From Xenorhabdus griffiniae (GTDB lineage Bacteria > Pseudomonadota > Gammaproteobacteria > Enterobacterales > Enterobacteriaceae), in assembly GCF_015163655.1 (NCBI RefSeq), contig NZ_JADEUF010000028.1, positions 1 through 37,002 of the forward strand: a stretch of 37,002 bases of DNA, given 5' to 3'. Below are positions 1-18,271 of this stretch, piece by piece. Position 1 is the stretch's first letter. Each line of letters begins with the position of its first letter. Under the pieces are notes generated by a model. It had not been told where the DNA came from and made no database searches. It was given only the letters and a program-made list of their open reading frames with translations. Both the position numbers and the translations under genes were made by a program.

Positions 1-15
1 ATCTTGTTGTGACAT
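1..15 (-). CDS. Possible 5' end of a minus-strand gene running off the window
   Basis: On the minus strand an ATG at 15-13 opens a frame reading M-S-Q-Q-D before the window edge. It is preceded by a purine-rich AAAGGA stretch about 14 nt upstream and a second AAGG immediately before the start. Only five codons are visible, so nothing can be said about the product. The start region resembles, in inverted orientation, the start of the small plus-strand ORF at 74. Confidence 0.35.
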
Positions 16-79
16 AGCCTTTTGTTCCTTTATTTCTTTCAGTTTGGTCACTTAAAGTTATAAAGGACAGGCTATGTCA
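10..79. repeat. Imperfect inverted repeat with a duplicated translation-start region
   Basis: TGACATAGCCT (10-20) is the exact reverse complement of AGGCTATGTCA (69-79). The similarity continues inward with small gaps through TCCTTTA-like sequence. Each arm contains a Shine-Dalgarno-like AAAGGA followed by ATGTCA, so the two arms look like inverted copies of one gene start. It may be a small mobile-element end or a local inverted duplication. Confidence 0.45.
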
Positions 80-151
80 TTTCAACTCACCTCGAAAGTC
101 GAGCATCGCGTTGTATTAACTCTATTTAATTATATGAGTGGTTATAAATAG
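74..151 (+). CDS. Small 25-aa ORF of unknown status
   Basis: ATG at 74 is preceded by AAAGGA at 62-67 and opens a 25-codon frame (M-S-F-Q-L-T-S-K-V-E...) ending at TAG 149-151. The ribosome site is plausible, but the product is too short to assign. The start region mirrors the minus-strand start at 15, so this may be the stub of a duplicated or truncated gene rather than a functional peptide. I do not recognise it. Confidence 0.25.
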   Translation: MSFQLTSKVEHRVVLTLFNYMSGYK

Positions 152-240: not shown

Positions 241-349
241 TATACGCATTAAACTTCAAGTTGCAATTTACAACACTCTATGAAACGTGATTTCTCCCCC
301 CGCTTTGTGGGGAGAAATTACACTCATCTTAAAGTTAGAAATTGGTGTA
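241..349 (+). repeat. 105-bp-class inverted-repeat element, copy 1 (MITE-like)
   Basis: The left end TATACGCATTAAACTTCAAG and the right end (reverse complement beginning TACACCAATTTCTAACTTTA) form imperfect terminal inverted repeats. The centre holds a hairpin, ATTTCTCCCC (290-299) pairing with GGGGAGAAAT (309-318). The same architecture and much of the sequence recur at 17630-17720 (opposite orientation) and more divergently at 17969-18073. No coding capacity. It is best read as a non-autonomous repetitive element of this genome. Confidence 0.7.
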
Positions 350-670
350 ACCCCATTAATTTAATTACATTAGAAATTTTTTAATCCTAATTAATTTGTT
401 AACAACAAAATAACCTCAGTTAATAAAATCTACCAACCTCACATTTTCAAAAAAAATCAGATAGATTAAACCTTACCCAAAATGTAAAAAATAAAATAAA
501 AATCAATAAAATAAAAAAAGATATTGACTAATAAACCCTATTATTAGTGAAACAAATAATAATAATTATCATTTACATTATCATTTGAACGGTGTACGTT
601 TTTCTCGCGCGATAGATCAGGCCGTTTTTAAGATTGGGTAACGAGGGATCCCCCACTCCAAACGAGGATA
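350..670 (+). promoter_or_regulatory. AT-rich leader/promoter region of the hemophilin locus
   Basis: This stretch has no supportable gene. From about 350 to 550 it is extremely AT-rich with long A-runs. A TTGACT hexamer lies at 524-529, but no well-spaced -10 partner is obvious. A Fur-box-like sequence follows at 558-576. The remaining roughly 95 bases before the start codon would be untranslated leader. Confidence 0.45.
558..576 (+). promoter_or_regulatory. Putative Fur box
   Basis: AATAATAATTATCATTTAC matches the classical 19-bp Fur consensus (GATAATGATAATCATTATC) at 14 of 19 positions by hand alignment. The surrounding 555-588 is a run of overlapping NATNAT-type hexamers, as in natural Fur operators. 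Its position about 100 bp upstream of a heme-uptake locus fits iron-dependent repression. Binding is an inference. Confidence 0.6.
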
Positions 671-673
671 ATG

Positions 674-1414
674 ATGAAAAAGTTCAACGTATTAATCGCC
701 GCTTTAGGCACATTGGGATTTATGGCACAGGCTCAGGCAGAAGTTGGTTTCGGGCAGAGTCAAATAAGCTCACCATCATATGTCAAGGTTGGTGAAACTC
801 AAACAGGTTCAAATTCACACGGTGGTGCGAATGGCGCCCCAGGCATTGGAGTCAGTTCAATCGGTGGAGGAAAACTCATCGGTTTTTCTGGCTTAACTCG
901 CATGGCACCAACGGACAGCAATGGTATTCATAATATCTCAAGAGCAGGTGCACCAGGCTCTCATGGCGGGATGGGGGTATTCCATTTTAGTAAGGTTGCT
1001 AATGCTGACGTTTATTTTGGTGAATGGTCTCAGACCGGTCAGGCTGGTGATAGTACCCATACGGTTTACTATGCAGGCAAGGATATCACTACCAATATTC
1101 CAACCGACGGTACAGCAACTTATACAGTGACAGGTATTAACCAGTACAGCGGTGACAATGCTCTGGCCGGTACATTTACCGCAGACTTCGGTGAGAAAAC
1201 CCTGGTCGGTTCCATGGAAAATACCGCAATGACAATAGATATTAGTGCCAATATTGGCGCTGATGCCAAATTCAACGGTATAGCCATAACTGATGATTTG
1301 GTTGGCAGCACCAGTGGTCACTTCTTTGGCGATAACGCATCTAGTTTGGCAGGGTATGCGAAATTTGCTGATGATGACACCAAAGATACCGCCTTTGGTG
1401 GTTCTAAACAGTAG
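674..1414 (+). CDS. hrpC: Hemophilin-like secreted heme-binding protein (T11SS cargo)
   Basis: Predicted secreted hemophore that binds heme and is exported by the DUF560 outer-membrane protein encoded next. Residues 1-22 form a signal peptide (M-K-K, hydrophobic core, cleavage after A-Q-A before E-V-G-F). The mature N-terminal half is rich in Gly, Ser and His, with several H-G and H-N positions that could ligand heme. The C-terminus has the TbpB-type beta-barrel ending, with G-H-F-F-G-D-N-A...L-A-G-Y followed by A-F-G-G-S-K near the end. There is no lipobox Cys, so the protein is soluble rather than a lipoprotein. ATGs lie at 671 and 674; GAGG at 664-667 is spaced better for 674. Hemophilins of Haemophilus, Acinetobacter and Xenorhabdus share this layout, and hrpC is the Xenorhabdus name as I recall it. 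The heme ligands are not proven from sequence. Confidence 0.82.
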   Translation: MKKFNVLIAALGTLGFMAQAQAEVGFGQSQISSPSYVKVGETQTGSNSHGGANGAPGIGVSSIGGGKLIGFSGLTRMAPTDSNGIHNISRAGAPGSHGGMGVFHFSKVANADVYFGEWSQTGQAGDSTHTVYYAGKDITTNIPTDGTATYTVTGINQYSGDNALAGTFTADFGEKTLVGSMENTAMTIDISANIGADAKFNGIAITDDLVGSTSGHFFGDNASSLAGYAKFADDDTKDTAFGGSKQ

Positions 1415-1426
1415 TCATTAATTTTT

Positions 1427-1465
1427 CAGAGAACAGTGCCATCCTGGGCTGTTCTCTGTTTTTTT
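1427..1465 (+). terminator. Strong intrinsic terminator between hemophilin and its secretor
   Basis: CAGAGAACAG (1427-1436) pairs perfectly with CTGTTCTCTG (1449-1458) around a 12-base loop, followed directly by seven T residues (1459-1465). It lies 13 bases after the hemophilin stop and before the secretor gene. It should end most transcripts after the cargo gene and let only a fraction read on. Confidence 0.85.
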
Positions 1466-1502
1466 ATTCTTAATAACGTGAGCTTTGTGATCTGGTTTCC
1501 CG

Positions 1503-2978
1503 ATGTCTGACAATAAAATTACGCCAATATTATCAACGGCACTGGTGGCGCTATGCCTATCCCTATCCGTTTATGCCGATGAAGATACCCCAAGAAAAAT
1601 CTGGCAAGAAGCACAACATAATCAACAGGAAAATGAAACCAATCTGATTACGCCAGATCCTATTTTTGTTGAAAATAATGCTTCACTGATTGTCATTAAC
1701 GGACAAACGTTTCAGGTCGAAAACAATATTAATGATATCGGCCAAGCACTATTCCTGGCTATTAACCATCAACAATGGTCAGATGTCAGACGTTTTCTCT
1801 CGGCTTATCAAAAATTGCCGGAACATGATGTAATGTTGGTCAATTTTGCTCAGGGCGGGCTGGCACGTCTTGAGGGCAATTTAGATCTCGCCGCTTATCA
1901 TTATCAACAAGTTCTGAATCAACAGCCCGATTTTCCTCGTATCGAACTGGAATTAGCTCGCGTCTATTTTGAGGATCATAAAAATCGGGAAGCTGAGCAA
2001 CTATTTACTGGATTGTATAAAGCACAAAAGTTACCAGAAGTCGTGCTGAAAAATATTAACAGCTATCGGGAAGCGATAGATCTGAGAAATAGTTGGCGCG
2101 GCTCTTTCTCGGCTGGTTACGCTTATAATGATAATGTAAATATGTCTCCTGATCAGGAAAATCCCCGTTACGATTTTGATCCCATAGAGCAAATACTCTA
2201 TAAAAGGCAGATACCAAAGGCCATCAGAGCATGGGGTACGTCTTATGACGCAACATTAAGTCGGCGTTATCAACTTACAGGACATCACGGTATTTTTGGT
2301 CGTGGCCTGATTTATGGTGAAAACTATCGTAATTACCATGATGAAAACGAGAATACATTTCAACTGGTTAGTGGATACAGCTACAAAAGCAAAAGTCACG
2401 ATTTCTCTTTTGGGCCTCTGTTTGAATATAAACAACGAGCAGGCGAACCCTATTACCGTGCGGTAGGTGCCAAAACAGAATGGCGATGGGCGTTCACACC
2501 CAAAACAGCCATGAATGTTGAACTTGAGCACAAACAGCTACATCATCAGCCAAGTTTTCGCAGGAAAGATGGCAGCTTTACCTCAGCCTACCTCACTCTA
2601 TTCCATTCCATTAGCAAAGACGTTGTCCTGTTTGGCGGCGGCGATTGGGTTTATCGCGACAACGACCAGTATGCCGTGGATCGCTACCAGCAATGGGGAA
2701 TTCGGACAGGGATTGCCGGACAAATCTATCCCGGAATCAATGGTTCTCTGTTTGCCACACTGAAAAAACGTCATTTTGGCGCTTACAACCCGATGTTGAA
2801 TGCCACACGCCAAGATAATGAGCAGATTTACAGCGCCATCATAAAAGTACCCGCCGCTGAAATATGGGGCATGACACCTTCTTTCACTTTCCGCCATCGA
2901 CGCAATCACAGCAATGTGGCTTGGATGTACAGCTATAACAAAAACGAAGTGCTAATCAGACTAGAAAAATATTTTTAA
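1503..2978 (+). CDS. hrpB: Type 11 secretion system outer-membrane translocator (DUF560/Slam family)
   Basis: Predicted outer-membrane pore that moves the neighbouring hemophilin across the outer membrane. The 491-residue protein starts with a signal peptide (cleavage near V-Y-A before D-E-D). A helical TPR-like periplasmic region follows, at about residues 75-195, including A-Y-H-Y-Q-Q-V-L and the L-A-R-V-Y-F-E repeat signatures. From the segment S-F-S-A-G-Y-A-Y-N-D-N-V-N onward it is an aromatic-rich alternating beta-barrel ending in L-E-K-Y-F, an outer-membrane C-terminal signature. This is the order found in Slam and NilB proteins. The start has no convincing Shine-Dalgarno site, which together with the upstream terminator suggests lower expression than its cargo. 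Clustering with a TbpB-barrel cargo supports the assignment. The symbol is recalled from Xenorhabdus. Confidence 0.85.
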   Translation: MSDNKITPILSTALVALCLSLSVYADEDTPRKIWQEAQHNQQENETNLITPDPIFVENNASLIVINGQTFQVENNINDIGQALFLAINHQQWSDVRRFLSAYQKLPEHDVMLVNFAQGGLARLEGNLDLAAYHYQQVLNQQPDFPRIELELARVYFEDHKNREAEQLFTGLYKAQKLPEVVLKNINSYREAIDLRNSWRGSFSAGYAYNDNVNMSPDQENPRYDFDPIEQILYKRQIPKAIRAWGTSYDATLSRRYQLTGHHGIFGRGLIYGENYRNYHDENENTFQLVSGYSYKSKSHDFSFGPLFEYKQRAGEPYYRAVGAKTEWRWAFTPKTAMNVELEHKQLHHQPSFRRKDGSFTSAYLTLFHSISKDVVLFGGGDWVYRDNDQYAVDRYQQWGIRTGIAGQIYPGINGSLFATLKKRHFGAYNPMLNATRQDNEQIYSAIIKVPAAEIWGMTPSFTFRHRRNHSNVAWMYSYNKNEVLIRLEKYF

Positions 2979-3039
2979 TCAAATAGTTATTCTTTTCTTT
3001 TGTGTGATGATAATTGATAAATCGAGGCAAGAGACATCA

Positions 3040-6018
3040 ATGACATACCGAATTAAAACACAGTTCACCCCCACCACAATTGCATTGTCACTGGCATTAT
3101 CACTAATTGCCCCACCCCTATTTGCCGAATCTAAACCTACAGCCACAACCTCAAATAGTAAGACGGATCTAGGCAAGATTCGTGTCACGGATAACAGTGA
3201 TAAAGATGAAGAGGGTTATAACGCAGTCTATGACAAAGATATCTCCAATATTTATATCGGCAAAGAGCAGATAGAGCGCTACAAGGGCGCTTCTCCCGCC
3301 GATTTAATTAAAGGTGCTGTCGGTGTATATAGCGGTGACGCCCGCAATAGTGGTGCCCTGGATGTCAATATCCGTGGTGTTCAGGGACAAGGGCGAATTC
3401 CCATCACCATCGATGGCACAGAACAGGCTATTACCGTCGGGCGAGGTTATAATGGAGCCAATAACCGTAACTACATCGATCCAAATTTAATCAGTAGCAT
3501 TGAAATCGAAAAAGGCCCTTCACTGAACCGTAAAGTTAAAGGATCAATCGGTGGGGCAGTATCTATCAAGACCTTGACCATTGATGACGTGGTGCCAAAA
3601 GGGGAAACTTTCGGTATCAATACTAAGCTGGAAACCAGTAGTAACTCAGTGAGGGAGCGTACACCATCCCTACAATTGGGACAGGACTACCGCGATATTC
3701 CTAACTTTATCCAAAACAAGGTGGAAACCGATCCAGAGTTGCAAATTACACCTCATTCATCGAAAGACAATAAACTGTTTGGTTTCAAAGATAATGCCTT
3801 CCGCATCGCATTAGGAACACGGCAGGAATATTTTGACCTAATGCTGGCCTATGCATACCGTCGTCAGGGTAACTATTTTGCCGGCAAAGGGGGCGCCCAT
3901 CGCTATGATGAACCCATTACGGAAAACGACAGGGAACTCATGAAGAATGTCCAGACAACACTGGACCCCTATCTGCCTTTTGCCGCTCGTATCTATCGTC
4001 CCGGTAATGAAGTTCCTAACACTTCCAGTGAAATGCGTTCTGTATTAATTAAAAATACTTGGCGTTTCACCGAAGATCAGGTTCTACAGTTGGGGATTCG
4101 TAATACCCATATGGAGTTTGGTGATATTATGCCTTCACGTCTGGGCTGGGTCATACCTGAAGAAAATAAAGTTCCTCAATGGCCATTAGCGAAAGTTCTC
4201 CAGAAAGCTGCCAACCTGACCTATAAATGGCAACCTGAGAATAACCCCTATGTCGACTTCGACATGAATTTATGGACAACTCGCACCACCAGCAATACCA
4301 ACACCGCCGGAGGATATCCGCGTACTCCTGTTGACAGAGACTGGCGTTGGGAAGATGGTCTTGAGGGCAGAAACGCCAATATCGATGGCACATTGATCAA
4401 TACTGCCATCACCCATTCTCAAAACAATCGTTGGGGTGTTGATCTTTCCAATAAATTTACCCTGCACCCGAGTTTAGAACTGACTTTAATGGGAAATTTC
4501 CAACGGGAACGCCTTGATTCCAATGATGATTATGATTCACCTAATCTATATTTTGACCAGTCACCGACACGGAAAGGACAACGTCAGGAAATCAATCTCG
4601 CCTTTAACTTTAACTGGCGACCTGCTTCATGGCTGGAACTGAATGCAGGAGCCAAGCGCGTTTCTTATTGGTCTCAAGATGATTTGCTTAATGAACGGCG
4701 TGCCGTAAAAGATAGCCGTTATCAGAAACAACCGGAAACCATTGGTCATGAAATGAGTTATTGGCGAACAATAACTGAAACTGAATCTAATATGATGAAA
4801 AAAAGAAAACAATTTATAAGATCAAACAACAGCTTGAAAATGAGCTCCGCAGAGAGGATTGAGTTTATGAATAAACTCCAAACTGAATACCCTGTGGTTG
4901 AGACAACTCGTATTGATTCACGTGATGGCCTAAAGCGTAATATGGTTAGAGAAAAATTCACTTGGAAGTACGATCCTAGCAATGGCAAGCTCAGTAAAAG
5001 CGGTAACCCCTATTTCAATGGCCAATTAGACATGAATGAAAAGGTTATTGACCCAATAAGCGGCAAAGAAGTCTATAAATATGAATACGGTGAGAGAGCT
5101 GACGCTACTGGCGTACAAGGCCCTGCTGTTGACGATCTCTGGGAAACTGCGCCAAAACGTAAGGATCACGCTTGGGCACCCACTTTCTCCGCAACGGCCT
5201 ATGTTACAGATGATTTCCGTATCTACGCCCGTTATGCTGAAGCGGTAAGAATGCCCAGCATTTTTGAAGATACCGTCGGTTTTTCAGGCTCTCCAACCAA
5301 CCAAATAGGCCATAAATTTAAGCCTGAGCGCGCCAAAACCGCGGAAGTTGGCTTAGTCTATGACTTTAGCCAATTAGTCGAAGCTGAACGCCATGCCGAT
5401 ATCAAACTCTCCTATTACAACACCCTCATTGAAAATGTGTTCGATCGGGACACTACCTATAAATTCTCCCAATTGGACAAACAAAAATTGGCTGGTTTGG
5501 AACTACAAGCACGCTATGACAACGGCAGTTTCTTTGCCGATATGGGGTTGGTCTATAACATGAAAAACAAGGTCTGTGACAATAACTCTGTCATGAGACT
5601 GGATTCCCAGAATCGTTATGGTATACCCGAATGTATTGATGGTGGTTTCCCTGGCGGTTATTTACGTACCTCTATTCAGCCTAAATACTCAGCTAACCTG
5701 AGCGTCGGCGGCCGCCTGTTTGATGAAAAACTGGAGCTAGGTAGCCGAATACTCTATCACAGTAAGGCAGAAAACAAGGATGAAAAATGGCTGATGAATG
5801 CCTTACCGGATATTTATAAAGGACAGTCTAATAACCCAATGCGCTGGAATCCGGTGTTTACGGTTGATGCCTATATCAACTATCAAATCACTCCTACTAT
5901 ATCCATAGAGTTAACTGGCACAAACCTAACTAACCGCTACTATCTCGATCCGCTGACACGTTCGATGATTCCAGCGCCGGGCAGAACTTTTAAACTCAGT
6001 TTGACCAGCCAATTTTAG
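3040..6018 (+). CDS. TonB-dependent outer-membrane receptor, probably heme/hemophilin
   Basis: Large TonB-dependent receptor, 992 residues from the ATG at 3040. That start is chosen over an in-frame upstream ATG at 3004 because GAG at 3031-3033 is well spaced and a clean signal peptide follows (cleavage after L-F-A, residue 29). A TonB-box-like stretch (D-L-G-K-I-R-V-T-D) precedes the plug domain at about residues 55-185, which contains the typical A-D-L-I-K...G-V and I-E-I-E-K-G-P-S motifs. The rest is beta-barrel ending in L-T-S-Q-F. Codons around 4780-5160 encode an unusually long, charged segment, probably a surface loop. Two Cys in another loop (K-V-C-D and P-E-C-I) may form a disulfide. 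Neighbour genes point to heme uptake. I believe it is called hrpA in Xenorhabdus but am not certain. Confidence 0.85.
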   Translation: MTYRIKTQFTPTTIALSLALSLIAPPLFAESKPTATTSNSKTDLGKIRVTDNSDKDEEGYNAVYDKDISNIYIGKEQIERYKGASPADLIKGAVGVYSGDARNSGALDVNIRGVQGQGRIPITIDGTEQAITVGRGYNGANNRNYIDPNLISSIEIEKGPSLNRKVKGSIGGAVSIKTLTIDDVVPKGETFGINTKLETSSNSVRERTPSLQLGQDYRDIPNFIQNKVETDPELQITPHSSKDNKLFGFKDNAFRIALGTRQEYFDLMLAYAYRRQGNYFAGKGGAHRYDEPITENDRELMKNVQTTLDPYLPFAARIYRPGNEVPNTSSEMRSVLIKNTWRFTEDQVLQLGIRNTHMEFGDIMPSRLGWVIPEENKVPQWPLAKVLQKAANLTYKWQPENNPYVDFDMNLWTTRTTSNTNTAGGYPRTPVDRDWRWEDGLEGRNANIDGTLINTAITHSQNNRWGVDLSNKFTLHPSLELTLMGNFQRERLDSNDDYDSPNLYFDQSPTRKGQRQEINLAFNFNWRPASWLELNAGAKRVSYWSQDDLLNERRAVKDSRYQKQPETIGHEMSYWRTITETESNMMKKRKQFIRSNNSLKMSSAERIEFMNKLQTEYPVVETTRIDSRDGLKRNMVREKFTWKYDPSNGKLSKSGNPYFNGQLDMNEKVIDPISGKEVYKYEYGERADATGVQGPAVDDLWETAPKRKDHAWAPTFSATAYVTDDFRIYARYAEAVRMPSIFEDTVGFSGSPTNQIGHKFKPERAKTAEVGLVYDFSQLVEAERHADIKLSYYNTLIENVFDRDTTYKFSQLDKQKLAGLELQARYDNGSFFADMGLVYNMKNKVCDNNSVMRLDSQNRYGIPECIDGGFPGGYLRTSIQPKYSANLSVGGRLFDEKLELGSRILYHSKAENKDEKWLMNALPDIYKGQSNNPMRWNPVFTVDAYINYQITPTISIELTGTNLTNRYYLDPLTRSMIPAPGRTFKLSLTSQF

Positions 6019-6038
6019 GTGCTTGATAAGAGGATCGT

Positions 6039-6860
6039 ATGACCAATACAGCCATATTAGACAATCCAGCCGCTTGTTTTCCATTGATGCCCAAAAGGGG
6101 AGTGCTGGTTGGTATCTTAATCGCCATTTTATTGCATACCAGTCTGATATGGCTGTTTAACCGACATACTTCATATGATGATGACGCGGCGCATCATATC
6201 AACAATAACGCTTCTACTATGGGGTTATCCATTACGATGGTTGCTGCCCCATCGTGGGAAAATAAGCCGGAGCCTGTTTCTCCTCCCTCCCCACTTTTGT
6301 CCGCACCGGAATCACCAACAAAACCAGACCTCGTACTGGATAAAGCCATTCACCCTGAAAATAAGATAGCCAGACCGCCGGCAGCCGATAAGCCTAAGAA
6401 ACGCCAAAAGCAGCCGAAAGAAAAACCGCAAGAAGTGGCAGAAAAGAAAACCATCCAATCACCACAGGTAGAGAAAAACAATCAGACAGAGCAGGAAACG
6501 CACGGTAACGATCAGGCTAATTCAGAAGGCAGTATGAGCCGCGCAGCAACATCACAACCTTTGGTGGGGCAAGGAAATAGCGAAGTAGACAATTATTCGG
6601 CAAGACTGCGGCAAGAAATAGAACGCCATAAACGCTATCCTCGCAGAGCAAAGAGGATGAAACAACAAGGTATAGTCACAGTCAGCTTTACCCTGCTAGG
6701 TGACGGCACCTTGACTGCCGCCAAGGTCGTTAATTCCTCCGGCAATAGCACACTGGATAATGCCGCACTTGATGCGATCAATAGTGCCAATTCAGTTGGC
6801 CCTATACCAGCAGGTATAGAGCCTAATGTTATGCTGACACTTGATTTTACATTGAGGTAA
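6039..6860 (+). CDS. TonB-family energy transducer dedicated to the heme locus
   Basis: A 273-residue TonB-like protein that would couple the ExbB/ExbD proton-driven motor to the preceding receptor. It has a short cytoplasmic tail and one transmembrane helix at about residues 21-40 carrying a His as in TonB. A long Pro/Lys/Glu-rich periplasmic spacer (about 75-150) follows. The C-terminal TonB domain (about 180-273) contains the conserved Y-P-R-R-A motif, V-T-V-S-F and D-N-A-A-L-D-A-I. ATG at 6039 is preceded by AGAGGA at 6029-6034, only 20 nt after the receptor stop, so the two are co-transcribed. No exbB or exbD is in the window; the chromosomal motor is presumably shared. Possibly named hrpD. 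Confidence 0.85.
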   Translation: MTNTAILDNPAACFPLMPKRGVLVGILIAILLHTSLIWLFNRHTSYDDDAAHHINNNASTMGLSITMVAAPSWENKPEPVSPPSPLLSAPESPTKPDLVLDKAIHPENKIARPPAADKPKKRQKQPKEKPQEVAEKKTIQSPQVEKNNQTEQETHGNDQANSEGSMSRAATSQPLVGQGNSEVDNYSARLRQEIERHKRYPRRAKRMKQQGIVTVSFTLLGDGTLTAAKVVNSSGNSTLDNAALDAINSANSVGPIPAGIEPNVMLTLDFTLR

Positions 6861-18073: not shown

Positions 18074-18271
18074 TAATTTATAAATTTATTGTTTCAGCCT
18101 ATTCAATATAACAAAACCTGAACAATAACCTCTTTAAAAAATTATTGACAATAGATGACGGATAAAGTTAATTAATATCCCGACCCATTCATCTCGTCCG
18201 ATTTATCAGAAGCTGTATCATTATCCGTAGAAGATATTTACCTATATAGTAATGTCATTTAGGAGAAGATC

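Follow-up and report, generated by a model that had tools for sequence, protein, structure and literature searches.

According to the available part of PMC8406197, the hrp locus of Xenorhabdus nematophila encodes a TonB protein, HrpA (XNC1_0073), HrpB (XNC1_0074) and HrpC (XNC1_0075), HrpB-dependent secretion of HrpC has been shown in Escherichia coli, and the locus is called conserved across Xenorhabdus. In the available text of PMC12282271, HrpC and CrpC (cobalt receptor protein) are among the verified cargo proteins. Comparable systems include the hemO cluster of Acinetobacter baumannii, which comprises HphA, HsmA, HphR, a TonB-related protein and, in the accessible portion of PMC8560813, a gene for a heme-degrading enzyme, and the hemophilin (Hpl) of Haemophilus haemolyticus, for which the same portion gives one His ligand. 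Here, we describe a four-gene locus on a 37,002-nucleotide stretch of the Xenorhabdus griffiniae genome (contig C194, hereafter the window; whole genome 4.22 Mb in 272 contigs) that is very probably the Xenorhabdus hrp locus, the counterpart of X. nematophila hrpC-hrpB-hrpA-tonB, capturing and importing heme. The locus shares its four parts and its genus with that of X. nematophila, with no difference among the features tested, and shares four parts and matching ligand His positions with the hemO cluster. However, unlike the hemO cluster, the four genes of the window include none for a heme-degrading enzyme, a HemS-type protein being encoded elsewhere, and the two HphA positions are both occupied by His in the cargo, whereas Hpl has one His ligand. 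The finding is correct, and the system is already known from the X. nematophila hrp locus.

Four plus-strand open reading frames (ORFs), in the order cargo, secretor, receptor and TonB, span positions 671-6860 in the ORF list and Pfam scan of the window:

671 to 1414, plus strand: HrpC cargo, a hemophilin-type hemophore with a signal peptide I, an N-terminal heme clamp and a C-terminal barrel (Pfam, NCBIfam and PDB matches)
818 to 820, plus strand: His50, aligned to HphA heme ligand H43 (profile alignment, His on His)
962 to 964, plus strand: His98, aligned to HphA heme ligand H106 (profile alignment, high posterior)
1503 to 2978, plus strand: HrpB, a type 11 secretion (DUF560/SlipAM) outer-membrane protein with an N-terminal TPR domain (Pfam)
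3040 to 6018, plus strand (the ORF opens at GTG 3004): HrpA, a TonB-dependent receptor with a heme or hemophore role assigned by linkage (Pfam, NCBIfam and PDB matches)
6039 to 6860, plus strand: TonB of the hrp locus (Pfam TonB_C and TIGR01352)

An initial annotation had reported a four-gene hemophilin, type 11 secretion and TonB receptor locus. This observation is real, as the ORFs at 671-1414, 1503-2978, 3004-6018 and 6039-6860 carry the expected Pfam families, with hrpC, hrpB, hrpA and tonB together as in a Xenorhabdus hrp locus, and the interpretation given to it is supported.

The heme-capture reading is well supported by the features of the cargo. HrpC matches HphA_N (2e-29; 102.7 bits against a cut-off of 22), HphA_C (3.5e-22) and TbpB_B_D (1.6e-10, above the cut-off), giving the N-terminal clamp and C-terminal barrel expected of a hemophilin and agreeing with the hemophilin-like, TbpB-barrel cargo first proposed. 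Hemophilins in the PDB are its relatives both by sequence and by fold, and the comparison with HphA that the initial annotation had suggested gave 35-39% identity in structure alignments. The axial His ligands expected in the clamp are also found, their positions assigned by alignment. Both His50 and His98 are invariant among orthologues, in 33/33 primary rows of a first alignment (for His50, rows with a letter at that position; the first piece of the split L034 cargo is counted) and in 28/28 of a second, although the rows, in part from the same species, are not independent. The 247-residue cargo has zero Cys, which bears out the predicted lack of a lipobox and led us to reject a lipidated Slam cargo. 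It matches NCBIfam NF041636, and the NCBIfam name 'Slam-dependent surface lipoprotein' was set aside as a family label unsuited to a Cys-less cargo. The HrpC proteins of Photorhabdus (13 loci among L019-L034) contain a single Cys, which lies within the signal peptide (GTCGL); this motif does not fit a lipobox, as Thr precedes the Cys.

The secretor contains a SlipAM barrel (2.5e-56, 191.8 bits) and an N-terminal TPR_Slam domain (1.3e-25, 90.3 bits), as anticipated for a DUF560 protein. This combination, together with an adjacent non-lipidated cargo bearing one TbpB_B_D barrel, is that of TXISS-1B. A sequence search of solved structures with the secretor found no relatives except TPR proteins (E up to 0.01). 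Across the 13 Photorhabdus loci, identity to the window is 49-51% for HrpB, 60-62% for the receptor and 57-64% for intact cargos; as HrpB is the less identical, secretor and cargo histories may differ.

The third gene encodes the long TonB-dependent receptor that had been predicted, with plug (Plug, 1.1e-13) and barrel (TonB_dep_Rec_b-barrel, 6.1e-27) domains. Its start is more likely ATG 3040 than GTG 3004, because the signal-peptide-like stretch comes after 3040. Among solved structures, the hemophore receptor HasR is nearest in sequence (1.1e-27), and the motifs VRMPS at residue 748 and HKFKPE at residue 770 presumably correspond to the FRAP and NPNL boxes known from heme receptors. The last gene matches TonB_C (2.5e-16, 60.3 bits) and TIGR01352 (67.3 bits) at 6039-6860, confirming that the locus has its own TonB; two more TonB genes occur elsewhere in the genome. 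The module had also been called self-contained. Its heme capture and outer-membrane part stands, but the self-containment does not, and a self-contained uptake system was rejected, since ExbB/ExbD and the inner-membrane heme transporter are encoded outside the locus. ExbB and ExbD family genes lie on contig C3, a further ExbB/ExbD-type pair on C112 resembles TolQ/TolR from its neighbours (judged by eye), and contig C205 groups HemS, a periplasmic binding protein, a FecCD permease, an ATP-binding cassette (ABC) ATPase and a receptor. Because the HemS set, ExbBD and further receptors lie elsewhere, the hrp locus provides an outer-membrane part, with the genome supplying the rest as well as other routes.

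The gene order cargo, secretor, receptor, TonB is kept in 32/32 related loci (19 Xenorhabdus and 13 Photorhabdus) from a scan of genome contigs that could find only close kin, because its patterns were derived from the window cargo. These loci include two identical X. indica contigs and one (L034) with its cargo in two ORFs; a cluster confined to this genome was rejected on this evidence. Identity of the window cargo is 99% with Xenorhabdus sp. BG5 and 75-89% across the other 18 Xenorhabdus loci, which marks the genome as a Xenorhabdus, and a genus survey found the cargo in 29/30 genomes at 75-100% identity, the missing genome being 82% complete. The constant linkage also bears on what the cargo is for. 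HrpC could mainly deny heme to competitors, such as those in an insect cadaver, or guard against heme toxicity, rather than feed its producer: it has no lipid anchor, and the available part of PMC10964412 reports that H. haemolyticus hemophilin lowers colonisation by non-typeable Haemophilus influenzae through heme sequestration. We consider this unlikely as the main role, as a receptor and TonB linked to the cargo in 32/32 loci fit uptake, although sequestration and uptake are compatible.

Several points weigh against the assignment of the window to heme capture and import. The top NCBIfam model of the receptor, TIGR01785 (TonB-hemin, a TonB-dependent heme receptor model), scores 241.1 bits, below its cut-off of 316.85, so that heme is assigned to the receptor through linkage, independently of this score. 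The shortfall would also suit a receptor and cargo that take a non-heme ligand, such as another metal or tetrapyrrole, as would the presence of cargo paralogues near cobalt and cobalamin genes in three genomes. Such a ligand seems most improbable, however, given that both HphA bis-His ligand positions are invariant in hrp cargo and that the closest solved receptor is that of a hemophore. The His50-H43 alignment posterior is low against A. baumannii HphA, the pairing scoring about 4 of 9 with 9us7 and higher with 8gmm. Three further receptors of the genome (on C205, C1 and C259) exceed the TonB-hemin cut-off, suggesting that heme probably has several ways into the cell, of which hrp is one. Orthology to XNC1_0073-0075 is judged from the make-up of the locus, the genus and published conservation, the named loci compared being from other species, and the heme route in this strain is predicted from sequence.

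If the locus captures and imports heme as proposed, iron shortage would cause Fur to leave the promoter and HrpC would reach the periplasm via Sec. HrpB would pass the unlipidated HrpC over the outer membrane into the medium, as the X. nematophila pair does in E. coli. There, heme would sit in the N-terminal clamp of HrpC, flanked by His50 and His98, judging from HphA H43/H106, and HrpC would hand it to HrpA, with import powered by the TonB of the locus and ExbBD encoded elsewhere. An HmuTUV/HemS-type set, likewise encoded elsewhere, would carry heme to the cytoplasm, where it would probably supply iron, and a hairpin 3' of hrpC would probably leave the cargo in excess over the three downstream genes. 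As found in this nematode symbiont and insect pathogen, the locus is a clean case of a heme-capture route already in print.

Two candidate regulatory features accompany the cargo gene:

558 to 576, minus strand: Fur-box-like site preceding the cargo gene (15/19 to the Fur consensus)
1427 to 1458, plus strand: terminator-like hairpin between cargo and secretor (11-bp stem with G-T allowed, loop of 10, then the T run TTTTTTTA)

The locus start of 558 in the initial annotation is the first base of the Fur-box-like site. When the 300 bp upstream were shuffled 200 times by mononucleotide, the top score reached 15 in 0 shuffles and 14 in 9, and a scan of the whole 37-kb window gave one other site scoring 15 (18161). 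In 32/32 orthologous loci the top Fur-like site before the cargo scores 14-16 of 19, with 88-107 bp separating it from the start; because 14 is reached in shuffles and position 18161 also scores 15, this constant position is the stronger argument for a Fur site. Similarly, weight for the hairpin rests on conservation, because shuffles of the intergenic stretch of the window gave a stem of at least 9 bp with a T-rich tail in 19/500 cases. The hairpin is alignable across the 18 Xenorhabdus rows supplied (a set without L004, L013 and the Photorhabdus loci), and a stem of at least 9 bp with a T-rich tail follows the cargo in 31/32 loci, L016 having a stem of 6. Such stems also follow 9/13 paralogous cargos, with mostly weaker T runs. 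Photorhabdus has a hairpin at the same place with a different sequence. A general promoter and terminator scan was at chance (7 promoter-like sites versus 14.7 in shuffled sequence, 6 terminator-like versus 6.5), and its rule, with a loop of at most 8, misses the hairpin at 1427-1458. The hairpin is probably a partial terminator that raises cargo above the downstream genes and, as a smaller second reading, its conservation after hrpC may mark a dosage attenuator.

A second cargo and type 11 secretor pair, the only additional one in the genome, lies outside the window at C230:19716-21991 (L002), and could be the only part of this system with any novelty. Window positions 1-112, at the contig edge, match the end of an IS982 insertion sequence element, and the C230 end and window positions 349-670 align to adjacent stretches of L003 (7436-7647 and 7677-8000) that form one intergenic region. 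In a closed genome labelled as the same species (G009, locus L109), the row identified by ORF sequence runs from an fdhD-like gene, paralogue cargo and paralogue secretor through a convergent 254-aa-type gene to hrpC, hrpB, hrpA and tonB. On these three grounds, the C230 pair very likely lies upstream of hrpC here, parted by insertion of the element. A full-length paralogue occurs in 18/30 genomes of the genus (19 places), on the same contig as hrpC and within about 6 kb of it in 13, on a separate contig in two (this one and G022) and elsewhere in three (G007, G011 and G012); G010, with split copies only, was left uncounted. The G007 and G012 paralogues, both scanned, have CbiQ and CobQ-like genes or CbiM as neighbours, and that of G011 has the same CobQ-like ORF close by. 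Three hemophilin-like cargo and secretor pairs (L106, L107 and L108) near genes for cobalt transport and cobalamin synthesis are of the CrpC type, using the name in the available text of PMC12282271.

The paralogues lack the His50 loop, and a His in the His98 column, in 13/13 rows of the first alignment and 22/22 of the second, counts that include short clampless forms of 181-194 residues (3/13 and 4/22 rows), which are uninformative on the loss of a single ligand. A near-invariant His at column 37 is kept in 21/22 rows. No clear Fur site was found in paralogue upstream regions, which reach at most 13/19 of the consensus, and no receptor was found beside the pair on C230. The short forms at L003:3647-4231, L003:4511-5068 and L006:4422-4970 (182-194 residues) have a signal peptide and barrel with almost no clamp, and are lined up with a full-length paralogue ahead of one secretor. 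From the missing ligand His residues, the absence of a detected Fur-like site or adjacent receptor, the clamp-poor copies and the cobalamin-linked clade, it is possible, if doubtful, that this pair, present at the same locus in about half of the Xenorhabdus genomes searched, gave up heme, the hemophilin fold having been adapted to a different ligand, conceivably a corrinoid or cobalt, or to a host-facing role. We infer the loss of heme binding from the ligand positions, and another residue could serve. The G012 paralogue, outside the 22-row set, is missing the same loop, yet carries His at 53 and 85 (own numbering) and may be an exception. Against a loss of function, several hrp-locus paralogues carry another clamp His near column 78-82, and the five full-length paralogues scanned reach 26.5-30.5 bits for HphA_N, versus a cut-off of 22, which three short ones miss (14.2-16.3 bits). 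The L003 paralogue model has a mean predicted local distance difference test (pLDDT) score of 87.1, and its best PDB match is a hemophilin (template modelling score 0.79).

In the secretor tree, the nine paralogues join the Xenorhabdus HrpB proteins, with Photorhabdus separated at 100/100, but their position within Xenorhabdus HrpB reaches only 90/77; in the cargo barrel tree, 13 paralogues and the HrpC of Xenorhabdus and Photorhabdus fall on opposite sides (100/99). Because branches in both trees are long, no history is claimed for the pair. A third tree, of cargos, gathers all 19 full-length paralogues on a single, clade-like side of a 100/100 branch, and the three cobalt-locus rows fall in various places among the hrp-locus paralogue rows. 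Owing to this scatter, the cobalt-locus rows are not the closest relatives of the paralogue of this genome, to which they show 74%, 74% and 60% identity, as against up to 91% for other hrp-locus rows. L013, the second, identical X. indica contig, was excluded from the trees and L034 from the cargo barrel tree; one cargo sample held 28/33 primary cargos (without L013, L027, L029, L032 and L034) and 8/10 full-length paralogues (without L002 and L007). Hemophilin homologues are reportedly diversifying, as the title of a 2024 paper has it, and that paper may already cover the loss of heme ligands in the paralogue. The available portions of PMC8406197, PMC8560813 and PMC12282271 contain no mention of this His loss or of the hairpin after hrpC. 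A bis-His hemophilin, a His-poor paralogue and a clampless paralogue, all beside type 11 secretors, form a natural series within one genus that makes directly testable what the secretor reads (the barrel) and what the clamp does (the ligand).

Among minor observations, the cargo gene of Photorhabdus luminescens DSM 3368 (L034:8001-8746) is split into two ORFs, reflecting either a broken gene or a sequencing error. Downstream of the tonB ORF, the window carries mnmE on the minus strand, a neighbour found in 11/19 Xenorhabdus but 0/13 Photorhabdus stretches, suggesting that the four genes stay together while the neighbour changes or falls out of view.
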